Below the pieces are notes generated by a model, which was not told the DNA's origin, searched no databases, and saw only the letters and a program-made list of their open reading frames with translations. This document shows, piece after piece, positions 19,008-28,990 of a stretch of 64,000 nt of DNA (the first letter of the stretch is position 1; each line of letters begins with the position of its first letter). The stretch lies in assembly GCA_004298015.1 (NCBI GenBank), contig SCSE01000022.1:1-64000 (forward strand). The letters run 5' to 3'. The translations under genes and the position numbers were made by a program. Source of the stretch: Rhodanobacter sp. (GTDB lineage Bacteria > Pseudomonadota > Gammaproteobacteria > Xanthomonadales > Rhodanobacteraceae).

Positions 19008-21257
19008 CTATTGCATCCCCGGCAATGCCCGCAACTCCTTCAAGCTGGTGTCTAGTCGCCCGCCGATATCAAGCGGCTGCAGGCCTTGCAGTGCGACATG
19101 AGCCTCGGCTTTACGCCCCTGCGCCGCCAGCATTCGCACCAGGGTAATGCGGTAAGCCGGTTCGTTCGGCGCAGTATTTACGGCATCGGCAGTCATGCGT
19201 TCACCTAACGCATGATCATCCAACACGTTCCAGGCATAGTCACCGTACATTGCCAGCAGTCGAGCATTCGGATCTGGATGCGACAATGCAGCCAGATAGG
19301 CTTCGACCATGCGTTGTTTTGGCAAGTCGCAGTGGTGCTCGCGGTCGCATTGGGTCAGGGCGCCGAGCGAGCTTTCGTCCTGCACGCCGGGCTTGCGAGC
19401 CTTCAACTTGGTGATCATGCTGTTCCACCACTTTTCTTTCAGCGGCAGGTGCATGCGCGAGTTCATGAAGATCAGTGCCTGCTCGGGCAGGATCGATGCA
19501 TCGGGCAGGGCCGCGGCTTTTTCCAGCGGCGCATAAGCCAGCTTGGTGAAGGGCGAGGTTGGATCGTAGTGCGAGTAGATGATGTAGGTGCGACCCAGTT
19601 CGTATTCGGCACGCGGTGACTGGGGTGAGCGGGCAGCCAGGTCTTCTGCCAGTCGCAGCGGGTTGCCCCAGGCGTAGGCTGTGAGTGCCGTCAGCGCGGT
19701 CCAGACCAGCATGAGTCCGCCGAGTAAAACGTAGCGTGGCAAGGCCATCGGCAGGCCATCGACCGCAGCATTTGTAGGAGCGCACCCGGTGCGCGATGGC
19801 ATTTCGCGCACAGGGTGCGCTCCTACGGTGACGCGAGGCGCAGCGAGCAACGGGATCACGGCCAGCATCAGGCCGAAGCTGGCGAAATAATTGCGGTGCT
19901 CGTAGATCAACTCCAGCGGAATGATGGTGCCGGTGAGTAACTGGCAGCCCAGAAACAACGCCAGGCCCAGTGCCACCAACGGTCGACGTTTGCGCAGCCA
20001 GAAAGTCGAGGTGATCAAGGCCACTAGTGCGACGATGCTGGCCAGGGTGGTCCACGGGGTCAGCAGGCCGGTCGAAATGCGAAAATTGTCGTGATAGAAC
20101 GACAGCGCATGCGGTGTTGGCAGCAACGTCCAGACGATGTAATCGACGACGATGCGCGCCTCGCTGAGCAAACGCGTACCGAGGGTGAAGTCACGCGTGG
20201 CCCAGGTTTCCGGGGTCAAGATGCCCGGCAGCAGCCACGCCAGTCCCAGCACCATCGGCAACACCAGTACCAGCAAAAACAGCGCAATGATCCGCCGATC
20301 CCGCGGCGGCTTCGGTGTATTCTTTGGCCGTGGCTTCAGTCGCGCTGTCTCCGGGTGATGCAAGCGACTCCCGGGTTGATCGAGGCCTCCATCCCATGCC
20401 ATGGGAGCGCCGATATCGGACAGACCAAGGCGTGGCGTCCTGAACTCGAACAGCGCCCATTCGACCAAGCATGCATACAATGGCAGCATTACTGCGGTTT
20501 CCTTTGCCAGGATGCCGACCACGGTGGGTACCGTAATACTGAACAGGCAGAGGAGGAAGCCGCGGCTGGATGTCAGCGGTCGGTGTCTCGGGTCGTTCGG
20601 TTCACCTTCCGCAGGCGTGTGGGTGCTCGAAAGTCCCAGCATGCGCCGGCGCCCGGCGACGTAACCGATCAGCCCCGCCAGTACAAACAGGTTGGCCATG
20701 CTCTCCATGCGCTGCACGACATACAACACCCCGGTGAGATTGATCGGCAGCAACATCCAGCCAGCGGCGATCAACGCGGCAACGATGCCGATGCGGCTCC
20801 CTGTAGGAGCGCACCCTGTGCGCGAAAACTCTACGTCTATCGGAGAACAATCGCGCACGACCGAAGGAGGCCCCCTCTTGTGGACAGGGACCGCTCCTAC
20901 AGGCGCCGAACACAGCAGGGCGCGGGCAAGCAGAAAAACCAGCAGGCCGTTCAACAGATGAATGACCAGATTGGTCAGCTTCATCCAGTACGGGTTGAGA
21001 CCGGTGGCGAGGTAGTTGGCGGCGAAGCTCAAGGAGGCAAGCGGGCGCTTGAATTCGCTCGAGGGCGAAGACAACGCCGCCGTGACTAACGTGGCTACAT
21101 CTACATGCTTGGGCTGTACGCCTTGGTTATCGACAATATTGGGGTAGTCGTCGAACAGGTAGCCGCCGTAGAGGCCGGGCCAGTACACCGCCGTGGTGAC
21201 CATGAATGCCACAGCAAGCAGAAGCAGGTGGAAGGATGATCGCAGGGGAGAGCGCAT
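19008..21257 (-). CDS. GT-C-type membrane glycosyltransferase-like protein with TPR-like tail, carrying two in-frame REPs
   Basis: A 749-residue polytopic membrane protein. The first loop after TM1 has YLFDDYPNIVDNQ, an acidic pair in the place used catalytically by GT-C enzymes and similar to the FDD motif of TMTC-type O-mannosyltransferases. About ten more hydrophobic segments follow, with a conserved-looking LELIYEHRNYFA, then a soluble C-terminus with TPR-like helices. Residues near 120-155 and 480-500 are translated REP elements (20803-20900 and 19774-19826), inserted without breaking the frame. Its ATG shares one base with the stop of the upstream paralogue. Position after the pilins suggests a pilin glycosyltransferase (TfpW-like role), but this is inference. 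Confidence 0.7.
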   Translation of the reverse strand: MRSPLRSSFHLLLLAVAFMVTTAVYWPGLYGGYLFDDYPNIVDNQGVQPKHVDVATLVTAALSSPSSEFKRPLASLSFAANYLATGLNPYWMKLTNLVIHLLNGLLVFLLARALLCSAPVGAVPVHKRGPPSVVRDCSPIDVEFSRTGCAPTGSRIGIVAALIAAGWMLLPINLTGVLYVVQRMESMANLFVLAGLIGYVAGRRRMLGLSSTHTPAEGEPNDPRHRPLTSSRGFLLCLFSITVPTVVGILAKETAVMLPLYACLVEWALFEFRTPRLGLSDIGAPMAWDGGLDQPGSRLHHPETARLKPRPKNTPKPPRDRRIIALFLLVLVLPMVLGLAWLLPGILTPETWATRDFTLGTRLLSEARIVVDYIVWTLLPTPHALSFYHDNFRISTGLLTPWTTLASIVALVALITSTFWLRKRRPLVALGLALFLGCQLLTGTIIPLELIYEHRNYFASFGLMLAVIPLLAAPRVTVGAHPVREMPSRTGCAPTNAAVDGLPMALPRYVLLGGLMLVWTALTALTAYAWGNPLRLAEDLAARSPQSPRAEYELGRTYIIYSHYDPTSPFTKLAYAPLEKAAALPDASILPEQALIFMNSRMHLPLKEKWWNSMITKLKARKPGVQDESSLGALTQCDREHHCDLPKQRMVEAYLAALSHPDPNARLLAMYGDYAWNVLDDHALGERMTADAVNTAPNEPAYRITLVRMLAAQGRKAEAHVALQGLQPLDIGGRLDTSLKELRALPGMQ
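19774..19826. repeat. REP pair (family A, shortest form) inside a coding sequence
   Basis: A 53-bp BIME with GTAG foot and inverted hairpins and only a short spacer, lying in frame inside the GT-C gene and adding about 18 codons. Frame and membrane helices on both sides are intact. Confidence 0.9.
20803..20900. repeat. REP pair (family A, long form) inside a coding sequence
   Basis: A 98-bp BIME with a diverged second arm, in frame within the same GT-C gene. It encodes about 33 extra residues between two hydrophobic segments, with no stop codon in the gene's reading frame. Confidence 0.9.
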
Positions 21258-23266
21258 CAGTGGGTCGTTTTCTGAGCTGAATTCGAGCGTGCAGTATTGT
21301 CGCTGTCAGTGTTTGCGTCGAGCATCAGCTGTTTGCTCAGCCGGGCCACTTCGTTCGGCCAATAATTTTGCCGGGTAAGCACCCAGTCGTGGAGAGTGAC
21401 CATGTTGAGACTCATGGGTTTTGCCTTCTGGGGTATGTGCTGGTAGTGATCAAGTAAGCGCAAACCTTGTTCAGGGTATCCGTATTGTCCCAATGTGGCT
21501 GCCGCCTCCAGTGCCATGCCCGGATGCGGTAGAAGATCAAGTGCGCGGACAAAATCCGCCAGTGCGGTATCAGGGTCGTGTTGTGCCAACGCGATGCGGC
21601 CTTGCATATAAGTCATATCCTGCTGCGGCCCGGCAGTCGCCAGTTTCGGGTTCTTCAAACCGGCATTGATCAATTCCAGCAAAGCCGACGGCGTCAGGCC
21701 TTGACAGTGGTCCGTTGTGGCCAGCGGCAGCACCCGGTCGAACCAGCGTATAAACAAGGTGCCGGTATTGGCAGTGTGCAGCATTGCCGTGCGGGCGATC
21801 TTCAGATCCGTGGGATTGACGCCGCCTGACAGACAGCGGGCATTGATCAAATTGAACGCAAGCTGCGCCTGATCGGGCTGGATGGCCAGCAGTAGCTTCA
21901 ACTTTCGTGCCGCCGTTTTCGCGTGGCCCTGGTACATCTCGATCTCAGCAACATTCGCTTGAGCACGCGGCGACGCCGGATTGATACGCGCCCAAATCGA
22001 CCCCTGCGTTTGCACATTGCCCCATACCACGGTGCGGGCATGCGTCATGCCAGCCAACGTGATGGGGAGTGCCAGCATCAGCGCAACCTTGAGCCAGCGC
22101 ATTTGCCGGGTGTCGGCCAGCCATAGGCCAAGTGGCCAGAACATCAGCAGGGCTGGCGTGTAATTGCGGTGTTCGAAATACAGTTCCAGCGGAATCGAGC
22201 TGGATTCAAGCAACTGTCCGGCGAAGTAAAACAGCACCGCCAGCGCCAGTGCAGGGTGTCGCCGCCGTTGCCACCAGGCACCTCCGATCAGGGCGAACAC
22301 GGCGAGTATCGATGGCAACGTGGTGCTCGGATGCAGCCATGACGTCGACGCGATGTACTGATCATTGAACAGCCCGCTGGAAAACGGCCGCGGCAGCCAC
22401 AGCATCTTGAGGTAATCGAGCAATATTCGCGGCTCGGTCAACAGGCGTTGGCCGATGCTCCAGGGACGGACGCCGACGGGACCGCCGAGCCAAAGGCCAT
22501 GCACCGCTGTCCATAATATGTAGCCCAGCACGGTGGCAGCAGGAATAACCCCCAAGGTGATCATGATGATCTGATGTGTGCGCCGCGCCGTACCGTCAGG
22601 TATGGGCCGTCGCGGTATCAGCACAATCAGTTCGATCAGCACGGCGTAGAGCGGCAGCAGTACGCCGTTTGCCTTGGACAGCGTGGCGAGTAGCGTGAAA
22701 CCACCCAAGCCCAACAGGCTCCATAGCGAGCCGGCTTTCAGCCGACCCTCAAGCACTAGCTGGCGACCGTGCAGCCATGCCAGCAATCCGCTCATCACGA
22801 AGGTCGCTACCAGCATGGCTTCGCGCTGAACGATGTAAAGCGTGGTAGAAACCAATAGCGGGTGCAGCAACCACAGACTGCAGCCCAGCAAGGCGGCCAG
22901 GCGTACGCGGCGTGCGTCGATTGACAATAGATCGCCCAGACGGGCCAGCAGCGCATACAGCAGTACACCGTTGGCCAAGTGCAGAATCAGGTTGGTGCGC
23001 TTGAAGGGAAGGGGGGGGGCGGGCCAGTTGTGGGCGTCAAGCAGAAACGTCAGCAAGGCCAGCGGTCGGCCTGTGGGATCGGCGGTGCCTGAGGTGATGT
23101 AGCGCCAGAAGGTGGCCCAGTGTGTTACCGGGCCATAGGCACCCAGTGCTGGCAGGCTGCCGAAGTCATCAAACAGGAAGCCGCCGTGCAGGCCTGGGGC
23201 GTAAGCCCACCACGTCACCAGTGCGAGCACAGGGAGAAGAAGGCCAGAGCGATAACGTGGCGGCAT
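21257..23266 (-). CDS. GT-C-type membrane glycosyltransferase-like protein with TPR-like tail
   Basis: A 669-residue paralogue of the following gene. It has TM1, then GGFLFDDFGSL with the acidic pair, about ten TM segments, IPLELYFEHRNYTPA (the counterpart of LELIYEHRNYFA) and a C-terminal region of helical repeats with the TPR-like pattern HDPDTALADFVRALDLLPHPGMALEAAA split over residues 560-590. The coding strand has a run of nine C at 23019-23011 near residue 85, a possible slippage site. It begins 88 bp after the pilin stop, beyond a terminator, so expression may depend on read-through. A role in pilin glycosylation is inferred from context. Confidence 0.7.
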   Translation of the reverse strand: MPPRYRSGLLLPVLALVTWWAYAPGLHGGFLFDDFGSLPALGAYGPVTHWATFWRYITSGTADPTGRPLALLTFLLDAHNWPAPPLPFKRTNLILHLANGVLLYALLARLGDLLSIDARRVRLAALLGCSLWLLHPLLVSTTLYIVQREAMLVATFVMSGLLAWLHGRQLVLEGRLKAGSLWSLLGLGGFTLLATLSKANGVLLPLYAVLIELIVLIPRRPIPDGTARRTHQIIMITLGVIPAATVLGYILWTAVHGLWLGGPVGVRPWSIGQRLLTEPRILLDYLKMLWLPRPFSSGLFNDQYIASTSWLHPSTTLPSILAVFALIGGAWWQRRRHPALALAVLFYFAGQLLESSSIPLELYFEHRNYTPALLMFWPLGLWLADTRQMRWLKVALMLALPITLAGMTHARTVVWGNVQTQGSIWARINPASPRAQANVAEIEMYQGHAKTAARKLKLLLAIQPDQAQLAFNLINARCLSGGVNPTDLKIARTAMLHTANTGTLFIRWFDRVLPLATTDHCQGLTPSALLELINAGLKNPKLATAGPQQDMTYMQGRIALAQHDPDTALADFVRALDLLPHPGMALEAAATLGQYGYPEQGLRLLDHYQHIPQKAKPMSLNMVTLHDWVLTRQNYWPNEVARLSKQLMLDANTDSDNTARSNSAQKTTH

Positions 23267-28119: not shown

Positions 28120-28220
28120 GTAGGAGCGCACCCTGTGCACAAAAGGGGACTTCCTTCGGTCGTGCGCGATAGCTCTTCGCCACATCACGAAAGGCTATCG
28201 CGCACAGGGTGCGCTCCTAC
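28120..28220. repeat. REP pair (BIME), family A, long form
   Basis: A 101-bp BIME between the S9 peptidase and the RAYT gene. Its spacer is shared with the copies at 203, 20803 and 28733. The foot CTAC at 28217-28220 contains the stop codon of the RAYT frame. Confidence 0.9.
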
Positions 28221-28675
28221 AGCCACGTGGCGTTCCAATAGGGATAGTCGTTCACGTGTTCGACGAGGCCTGCACGTACGGGATTGGCCATGATGTAGCG
28301 CGCTGTCGTGGGGAGATCTTCGTCATGGCGCAGTGCGTGGTCGTGGAAACCGCGTGCCCAGATGCAAGGTTTCTTCATGCCGTGTCCGAGCCGCTTGCTG
28401 ACAAGGGATTTAAAGCGATTCATGATAGTCGACAGGTCATCGCGCTCGCCGAGTGCGATCAGGCCGTGCCAGTGATCTGGCATCAATACCCAGCACAATG
28501 CGTTCGCATCTCCCCATGTCCGGGATTCCATCATCAGCCGGCAGGCTGTGCGGGCGAACTCCGGCTCCAGGAAGTACGGGACGCGGTCTGCGGTGACGCT
28601 CGTCAACAGGTAGATCTACCCTGGCAGCGAGAGGCGACCCTTGCGGAGTGCCCGATGGCCTGCGGTGTCTTTCAT
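28217..28675 (-). pseudogene. REP-associated tyrosine transposase (RAYT, TnpA_REP-like) interrupted by an amber codon
   Basis: Read from the ATG at 28675, the frame gives MKDTAGHRALRKGRLSLPG, then TAG at 28618-28616, then IYLLTSVTADRVPYF and a complete RAYT core. The core has the HUH motif in MPDHWHGLIAL and the catalytic-tyrosine region ARYIMANPVRAGLV. Relatives usually have Q at the stop position (CAG to TAG is one change). A TTG at 28606 could initiate a shorter protein lacking the first beta strand. RAYTs process GTAG-footed REP hairpins as single strands, and this gene lies between such REPs, so it is the likely source of family A. Confidence 0.85.
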
Positions 28676-28732: not shown

Positions 28733-28990
28733 GTAGGAGCGCACCCTGTCCACAAAAGGGGACTTCCTTCGGTCGTGCGCGATAGCTCTTCGTCACGTGA
28801 CGAAAGGCTATCGCGCACAGGGTGCGCTCCTACAGGCGGGCAGAGCCATCGCGCACAGGGTGCGCTCCTACAGGCGGGCAGAGCCATCGCGCACAGGGTG
28901 CGCTCCTACAGGCGGGCAGAGCTATCGCGCACAGGGTGCGCTCCTACAGGCGGGCAGAGCTATCGCGCACAGGGTGCGCTCCTACAGGGC
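28733..28990. repeat. REP pair followed by a tandem array of REP units
   Basis: One forward REP (GTAG at 28733) faces a row of five inverted units. The TCGCGCAC cores start at 28811, 28849, 28887, 28925 and 28963, exactly 38 bp apart, each unit ending CTACAGGCGGGCAGAGC. The array ends 6 bp before the corA stop. Confidence 0.95.

Follow-up and report, generated by a model that had tools for sequence, protein, structure and literature searches.

How can a mobile repeat come to lie, complete and in frame, within the gene of a membrane protein, and what allows it to stay there? The question is raised by the segment 20803–20900 of a 64,000-nucleotide stretch of a Rhodanobacter genome (the window), which forms a complete head-to-head pair of REPs, a REPIN of the GTAG type. 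The original prediction had described it as a 98-bp BIME translated within a 749-codon gene for a GT-C membrane protein, and had offered either tolerance in a loop or a frame-keeping insertion mechanism as the reason for its survival. The coordinates, the length and the open frame proved right on the evidence of the ORF, the hairpin and the copy number. The label was right in so far as the element is a REP pair, but an E. coli BIME consists of REP units of E. coli, which have spacer motifs of their own, and REPIN or GTAG-REP dimer is the fitting term.

The two REPINs and their host gene

The 98-bp REPIN starts with GTAGGAGCG and ends with CGCTCCTAC, with GTAG at one end and CTAC at the other. 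Its ends pair through 20-nt arms (20800–20819 and 20884–20903) that are 90% complementary, and the two REPs stand head to head in one hairpin. The fold energy of the strand is −27 kcal/mol (z −5.79), and none of 200 shuffles was as good. The element is an asymmetric long-form REPIN: the arm at 20803–20825 (plus strand) is a perfect 23-nt REP arm, while the arm at 20878–20900 (minus strand), of the long-form type, differs from it by five mismatches. Long-form copies that are 80–82% identical to it are located at 203–303, 28120–28220 (80%) and 28733–28833 (82%). The REPIN lies wholly within the ORF 19008–21257 (minus strand) and leaves its frame open; by predicted translation it encodes 33 residues (120–152), with VGAVPVHK derived from the divergent arm and SRTGCAPT, the C-terminal end of the insert, from the perfect one. 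A whole REP would thus be translated in frame in an ORF whose predicted product is far from a short hypothetical protein (<120 aa). The same ORF contains a second REPIN of 53 bp (19774–19826), overlooked in the original prediction, which corresponds to the 18 residues 478–495. At both ends of both elements an imperfect palindrome carries the GTAG (or GTGG) tag on its outer side, and both inserts terminate in SRTGCAPT, one arm being read in one reading frame.

The 749-aa product was modelled with AlphaFold from 58 sequences (pLDDT 80.5, pTM 0.83). The model has a membrane domain at approximately residues 2–533 and a C-terminal TPR domain. The first 19 structural matches are OST or its translocon complexes, AglB, PMT, PglB and ArnT (Z 13.4–17.5), and the GT-C matches over approximately residues 2–533 reach Z 12.5–17.5 with an rmsd of 4.2–6.3 and about 300–354 aligned residues; the structural matches of the C-terminal part are TPR proteins. 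Because of these matches, the GT-C assignment of the original prediction is supported by the predicted fold, and the protein appears to be a glycosyltransferase-like GT-C membrane protein with a TPR domain. It shares the fold of the membrane domain with the GT-C glycosyltransferases (OST/STT3, AglB, PglB, PMT, ArnT), and differs from them in that it carries the TPR domain and that no Pfam or NCBIfam profile passed the threshold used. By Foldseek alone the model had no match at E ≤ 0.001. A sequence comparison with solved structures yielded no convincing relative (best E 0.076). The adjacent gene (21257–23266, minus strand) encodes a paralogue of 669 aa, in which no REP was detected. Two type IV pilin genes are located beyond the paralogue, near the GT-C gene.

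Three variable loops of the membrane domain are of interest here: loop 1 (residues 118–152), which contains the 98-bp REPIN, loop 2 (473–504), which contains the 53-bp REPIN, and loop 3 (271–320; 20298–20447, minus strand), in which a weak REP match with five mismatches is found. Residues 120–152 lie between the predicted helices 89–117 and 153–169, which bears out the claim of about 33 added residues between two membrane segments. The model has low confidence in the loop cores, with pLDDT of 42–52 for residues 121–150 (42–50), 281–310 and 481–500. The REPIN-bearing loops are likely to be disordered; the model allows this to be called only likely, since other, partly conserved loops (residues 61–70, 381–400 and 441–450) have an equally low pLDDT of 44–51. 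By helix order, loops 1, 3 and 2 are placed on one side of the membrane together with RRR 203–205 and RKRR 422–425, and the nearly invariant D36-D37 and the invariant E453-H454-R455-N456 on the opposite side. Helix order and the positive-inside rule suggest that the three loops face the cytoplasm.

REPs in the genome and among the orthologues

With up to three mismatches allowed, the 3.93-Mb genome has 150 copies of the 23-nt arm (reversed-pattern control: 0); the 98-bp query matches 67 places, and the window contains 22 REP-like matches against 0.81 expected. The genome-wide classification covered 46 stretches around the best 100 of the 150 arms, 97 of them exact and 3 with one mismatch; together these stretches amount to 240,519 bases, or about 6% of the genome. 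Sites with inexact arms only may be missing from the 68 sites obtained. Among the sites from these arms, 5 of the 68 are in frame within confirmed genes and 63 are not, compared with about 60 in-gene sites expected if insertions were evenly spread and 88% of the genome is taken as coding. Two of the five are those in the GT-C gene; the others are in polA, between the 5′–3′ and 3′–5′ exonuclease domains, in a hrpA-type helicase gene and, as a cluster of REPs, in an icmF-like mutase gene, the names hrpA and icmF being our assumption from the domain make-up. Only these four genes were counted as hit. ORFs that span REPs and have no Pfam match (L101, L102, L112, L125 and L130) were left out, as were other REP-spanning ORFs, including L136, on codon score alone. 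The codon score of L125 is positive on both sides of its REP. Across the genus, REP arms are present in 15 of 30 polA loci and 10 of 30 hrpA loci (for each gene the best 30 loci from 45 genomes, among them this one); the two genes are biased controls, picked for their REPs in this genome.

A RAYT gene (28217–28606, minus strand; NF047646, E 3.8e-35) is located 7 kb from the 98-bp REPIN and is flanked on both sides by the same REP family, by the long-form REPIN 28120–28220 on one side and by the region 28733–28985, comprising the long-form REPIN 28733–28833 and a tandem REP array, on the other. Its product of 129 aa is read from a TTG codon just upstream of which a TAG stands in the same frame, so that its integrity, and with it the function of this copy, is uncertain. 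PF01797 matches four further places in the genome. Nine of the 68 REP sites fall within the 64-kb window (binomial P 1.7e-6); when the two RAYT flanks are set aside, the figure is 7 of 66 (P 1e-4). Moreover, four of the nine full-length (1–98) matches to the 98-bp element, itself included, are on this contig. The window was, however, chosen because of its REPs, and among 30 GT-C loci in-loop REPs were found in 4 of 5 genomes with PF01797 within 20 kb on the same contig versus 11 of the other 25, which is no clear difference. Local hopping from the RAYT gene is a lead only.

Orthologues of the GT-C gene were collected from 80 loci and reduced to 58 distinct sequences, 22 having been dropped for identical C-terminal 400 residues. 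The variable stretches, loops 1–3 and residues 205–232, make up 15.0 kb, and the rest of the genes 104 kb. All 46 REP arms detected at up to five mismatches are located in the variable loops; at up to six, 50 are located there and 4 in the remaining 104 kb. The shuffled-loop control gave a mean of 0.98 and a maximum of 6. No REP match occurs in the stretch 205–232 of the 58 orthologues. REP arms are carried by 19 of the 58 sequences at up to five mismatches and by 14 at up to two. They belong to three families: A (GTAGGAGCGCACCCTGTGCGCGA), B (GTRGGAGCGRCTTCAGYCGCGA) and C (GTAGGAGCCCGCTCGCGGGCGAT). Loop 1 carries family A in eight orthologues, B in eight and C in two, loop 2 carries A in two and B in six, and loop 3 of the orthologue L027 contains a perfect family-B arm. 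No interrupting stop was found in the REP-bearing frames of the orthologues.

As a control, 50 named loci of about 8 kb were searched at up to three mismatches. The GT-C genes contained 29 arms in 107 kb, spread over 14 of the 50 genes. Their paralogues, found at 25 of the loci, contained 11 arms in 51 kb, all in two genomes, and the remaining 241 kb contained 7 arms, six of which form one array in L097. REP arms of paralogues in L050 and L051 lie, by eye, in stretches that match loops 2 and 3.

None of the 58 orthologues shows the same length and sequence at the site of the 98-bp REPIN without similarity to a REP. The nearest relative, L021 (about 80% identical), has no REP match at up to six mismatches, and its loop 1 is 16 codons shorter. 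The exact insertion and a target duplication, which orthologue alignment had been expected to reveal, are not definable, as the REP-free loops do not align base by base. The sisters L027 and L030 carry different families, B and A respectively, in both loops. On the gene tree, the state of loop 1 (none, A, B or C) changes at least 14 times (shuffled mean 17.1; 2 of 300 shuffles as low) and that of loop 2 at least 7 times (shuffled mean 7.8; 60 of 300 as low); these are minima on an uncertain, quickly built tree with 24 of 55 inner branches open, and L041 is a partial sequence without most of loop 1. The loop states seem to track descent only loosely, with slight clustering for loop 1, and the copies need not all be independent. 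Decay is visible among family-B remnants in loop 1: an in-frame difference of 24 nt separates those of the sisters L031 and L033, and one of 15 nt, resembling a duplication beside the arm, those of L025 and L026.

In several clear cases (seven genomes) the family found in the gene outnumbers the other two in the host genome: C in G014 (126 arms), A in G000 (139) and G020 (500), and B in G002 (299), G003 (293), G031 (230) and G017 (210), to which the locus L065 was assigned by its coordinates. There are exceptions. The gene L094 carries family A, yet its genome (G025) has 193 B and 82 A arms; L023 carries a decayed B copy in a genome (G023) with one B arm; and the in-gene A arms of G041 and G026 are near-perfect, although these genomes have only 2 and 3 A arms in all.

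Frame, silent sites and the origin of the in-gene copies

The lengths of the two-armed in-gene REPINs fall into one class modulo 3 within each gene: 2 in the GT-C family (17 of 17), 1 in polA (14 of 14) and 1 in hrpA (10 of 10); the REP cluster in the icmF-like gene, 180 bp long, is 0 modulo 3. When 49 extragenic REPINs were read in every orientation and phase, 152 of the 294 readings were free of stops. Only 4 of the 98 readings in which the TAG of GTAG is in frame were open, versus 80 and 68 in the other two phases, and the 5′ arm is read as VGA at all five in-gene sites of this genome. The silent sites of the arms are nearly frozen. The identity at four-fold sites is 0.974 for the GT-C arms (5 sequences, all loop 1) compared with 0.546 elsewhere in the gene (0 of 500 windows as high), 0.983 for the hrpA arms (9 sequences) compared with 0.684 (0 of 1186 windows), and 0.934 for the polA arms (9 sequences) compared with 0.721 (6 of 858 windows).

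The established facts, a REPIN in frame, in multiple copies, recurring among orthologues and confined to variable loops that are modelled with low confidence, are probably best accounted for by blind insertion followed by selection, with variable loops retaining frame-compatible REPINs that later decay. A pair of GTAG-type REP hairpins, mobile but non-autonomous and presumably moved by a RAYT, would have landed as a REPIN in the GT-C glycosyltransferase-like gene without regard to its content, and nearly all such hits in coding sequence would be removed by selection. A copy would survive where it entered a loop that varies in length, is probably disordered and joins two transmembrane helices, on the putative cytoplasmic side and away from the conserved loops; its orientation and phase would have to be free of stops and its net length compatible with the frame. 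Its peptide would be expressed and neutral. Loops 1 and 2, and clearly loop 3 in one orthologue, would have been fed repeatedly by at least three REP families in different species, and older copies would decay through point mutations and in-frame length changes until they resemble an ordinary variable loop. Blind insertion and selection explain why in-gene REPs are rare, why they are located in variable loops and linkers, why their frame is open and why the families turn over. The first of the two options in the original prediction, tolerance in a loop, is supported, as the REPINs are situated in length-variable, low-confidence loops of the family and REPs are depleted from genes. Against blind insertion with selection stand two results: no exact empty site or target duplication was obtained, the loops of L021 differing in length and sequence, and each gene has one fixed frame class whatever the REP family, unlike what chance insertions would be expected to give. 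The nearly frozen silent sites fit blind insertion and neutral decay only if the copies are recent, and their recency is in doubt because of the shared aligned position of six family-A copies in loop 1 and the alike spacers of some hrpA copies, both described below. The exceptions to the family match and the low pLDDT of other loops lower our confidence in this explanation slightly.

We consider it unlikely that the in-gene REPINs are old and inherited, with arms kept at the level of DNA or RNA by a role of the hairpin such as translation pausing between helices or domains or mRNA protection. Such a role would be consistent with nearly frozen silent sites in three unrelated genes and with the near-perfect arms in G041 and G026, genomes almost without other copies. 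It would also fit the loop 1 offsets, as six of the eight family-A copies start at offset 15, one aligned position. Furthermore, 4 of 36 hrpA spacer pairs are 0.83–0.90 identical, above the extragenic 99th percentile of 0.774 (a baseline from this genome alone), which suggests inheritance with the arms unchanged. However, 39 of the 58 GT-C orthologues, 15 of the 30 polA loci and 20 of the 30 hrpA loci have no REP, the families differ between sisters, and the long form is present in opposite orientations in L020 and L039. The GT-C and polA spacers are on average even less alike (mean identities 0.497 and 0.539) than extragenic ones (0.607), partly from length differences. No GT-C pair and only the polA pair L170/L172 exceed the extragenic 99th percentile.

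Replacement in place, in which a resident REPIN is exchanged from the GTAG tip to the CTAC tip for another genomic REPIN by RAYT-mediated exchange or gene conversion, is also improbable on balance. A frame-neutral site, once founded, would in this way keep gaining fresh arms, and fresh arms are indeed seen alongside differing spacers. In loop 1 the families A, B and C have one register in common, with 5′ phase 0 and 3′ phase 2 in all 13 two-armed copies, and in hrpA the families A and B have the phases 0 and 1 in common. In contrast, A and B are in different registers in polA, and loop 2 of L030 deviates from the other three two-armed loop-2 copies. The loop 1 offsets, 15 in six of eight family-A copies and 36 in four of eight family-B copies, also speak against a single site, and the passages of the REP literature considered here describe no such exchange.

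Recent insertion, replacement in place and selection at the DNA level each cover only a part of the nearly frozen silent sites and the gene-fixed frame class. We put forward tentatively, as a minority view, that the in-gene arms are maintained as DNA or RNA and not merely tolerated as protein, either through selection on the hairpin or through repeated replacement at founded frame-neutral sites. If this is true, some protein loops and linkers of Rhodanobacter are standing docking sites for a mobile repeat. It would account for the gene-specific frame class and for silent sites being frozen, and also for the position that distant orthologues share and the near-perfect arms in genomes that have almost no copies of that family elsewhere.

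The second option in the original prediction, an insertion mechanism with a fixed, frame-preserving net length, is very improbable. Although the lengths are equal modulo 3 within each gene, as such a mechanism would predict, the value varies between genes (2, 1, 1 and 0), and therefore no single net insertion length fits; the 54 REPINs counted in the genome stretches and the window are moreover spread over all length classes (24, 15 and 15). Selection can suffice, since about half of the extragenic REPIN readings are stop-free, and no special frame-keeping mechanism is needed. That the gene is a pseudogene or an assembly artefact with a frame open by chance is barely credible, even though the assembly is a draft of 90 contigs and the REP-encoded peptide is so far a predicted one, as the GT-C gene has matches in 39 of the 45 genomes of the genus (one of them, in G029, weak) with no stop in any of those listed, many invariant residues flank the loops on both sides, coding scores are positive on either side of both REPINs, and 19 of the 58 orthologues carry in-frame REPs in the same loops.

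Relation to known in-frame repeats

REPs within genes are already known, mainly from a 2013 paper that we take to be by Di Nocera and colleagues. As described in its main text (PMC3733652), GTAG and CGTC REPs or REP dimers lie in frame inside many known genes and typically add 20–30 residues. The notion that REPs are normally excluded from genes therefore holds as a tendency, with 5 of 68 sites in genes here, and not as a rule. The targets in that text include DNA polymerase I and RNA helicases; double insertions are reported, for example in uvrA of O. terrae, and recB of X. campestris and X. oryzae was struck at about the same site. Loops and linkers were proposed there as tolerant places, and a link was made to the palindromic elements of Rickettsia. 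In-frame REPs, double insertions and the polymerase and helicase targets are common to those cases and ours. The present case is set apart from those in that main text, where the word Rhodanobacter is absent, by its target, a GT-C membrane protein, by its recurrence in 19 of the 58 orthologues with REPs of three families spread over two to three loops, and by the frozen silent sites.

According to the relevant passages of PMC10969869 and PMC3733652, Rickettsia palindromic elements are likewise palindromic mobile elements in frame in unrelated protein genes. The elements described here differ from them in being GTAG REPINs with a RAYT gene nearby and in that only a small minority of their sites in this genome are in genes; the likeness claimed here is one of behaviour. 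The REPINs of Pseudomonas fluorescens SBW25 are, in the passages of PMC3116915 devoted to them, inverted REP pairs proposed as the mobile unit, associated with a RAYT and mostly extragenic, as here; in-gene copies are no subject of those passages, and the word "intragenic" is absent from the text. Among the titles and abstract openings listed for REPs, REPINs and RAYTs of Rhodanobacter, in-frame REPs and intragenic REPINs, no report of REPs in a GT-C protein was found. The one listed paper in which Rhodanobacter and "repin" occur together owes the second word to a surname among its references.

The GT-C gene is thus a new and unusually well replicated case of in-gene REPs and an unusually clear hot spot. 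It represents a replicated natural experiment, in which one gene with two to three loops can be followed through 58 orthologues, three families and all stages from fresh perfect copies to decayed remnants. While earlier in-frame REPs were scattered cases, this family opens the frequency of tolerated coding insertions, their decay and the selection on their arms to study, and it bears on whether the turnover of REPINs supplies new protein sequence to variable loops. For annotation it carries a warning: variable loops that are in frame can be mobile DNA.

In-frame REPs in other genes

REPs lying in frame were also found in three further genes. In the source genome, the polA gene carries a REPIN, a head-to-head pair of GTAG-type REP arms, in the linker joining the 5′-3′ and 3′-5′ exonuclease domains (L114:2477-2549). 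Arms of REP family A or B occupy this linker in 15 of the 30 best polA loci (L146-L175) from 45 genomes. The hrpA-type helicase, named from its domain make-up, contains an in-frame REPIN in one loop (L138:2463-2538 in the source genome). This single loop holds a REPIN in frame in 10 of the 30 best loci (L176-L205), and the silent sites of its arms show nearly no change. In the icmF-like fused mutase, a cluster of three tandem REP units coding for VGAHPVRD and one inverted arm lies in frame at the junction of the MeaB-like and mutase domains (L107:2491-2670).

Length class of the REPINs within each gene

The lengths of the two-armed REPINs modulo 3 were compared among the GT-C, polA and hrpA orthologues (L020-L049, L060-L094 and L146-L205). 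The class is uniform within each gene (17/17 in GT-C, 14/14 in polA and 10/10 in hrpA), regardless of REP family or reading phase, and it is not the same from gene to gene.

Two GT-C orthologues, L037 (G041) and L038 (G026), contain near-perfect in-gene REPINs in genomes with only two and three family A arms, respectively (at most two mismatches). In loci L050 and L051, the paralogue adjoining the GT-C gene (646-2944 and 2-1883, respectively) likewise has REP arms in variable stretches, where they form composites of families A and C.

The RAYT gene and its surroundings

The gene for the REP-associated tyrosine transposase (RAYT) is located on the minus strand at 28217-28606 of the window, with an in-frame TAG immediately upstream of its TTG start. 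Long-form REPINs of the same type as the 98-bp element in the GT-C gene lie on both sides; the flanks (28120-28220 and 28733-28985) comprise these REPINs and a tandem REP array with a 38-bp period. The 64-kb window (1-64000) holds 9 of the 68 REP sites seen in the source genome, near the RAYT gene. This gathering of sites may reflect local hopping.

In several members of the genus (G002, G003, G004, G012, G013, G017, G022, G025 and G031), the GT-C gene and a RAYT-like match to PF01797 are separated by about 6-18 kb, possibly an old location that these genomes have in common.
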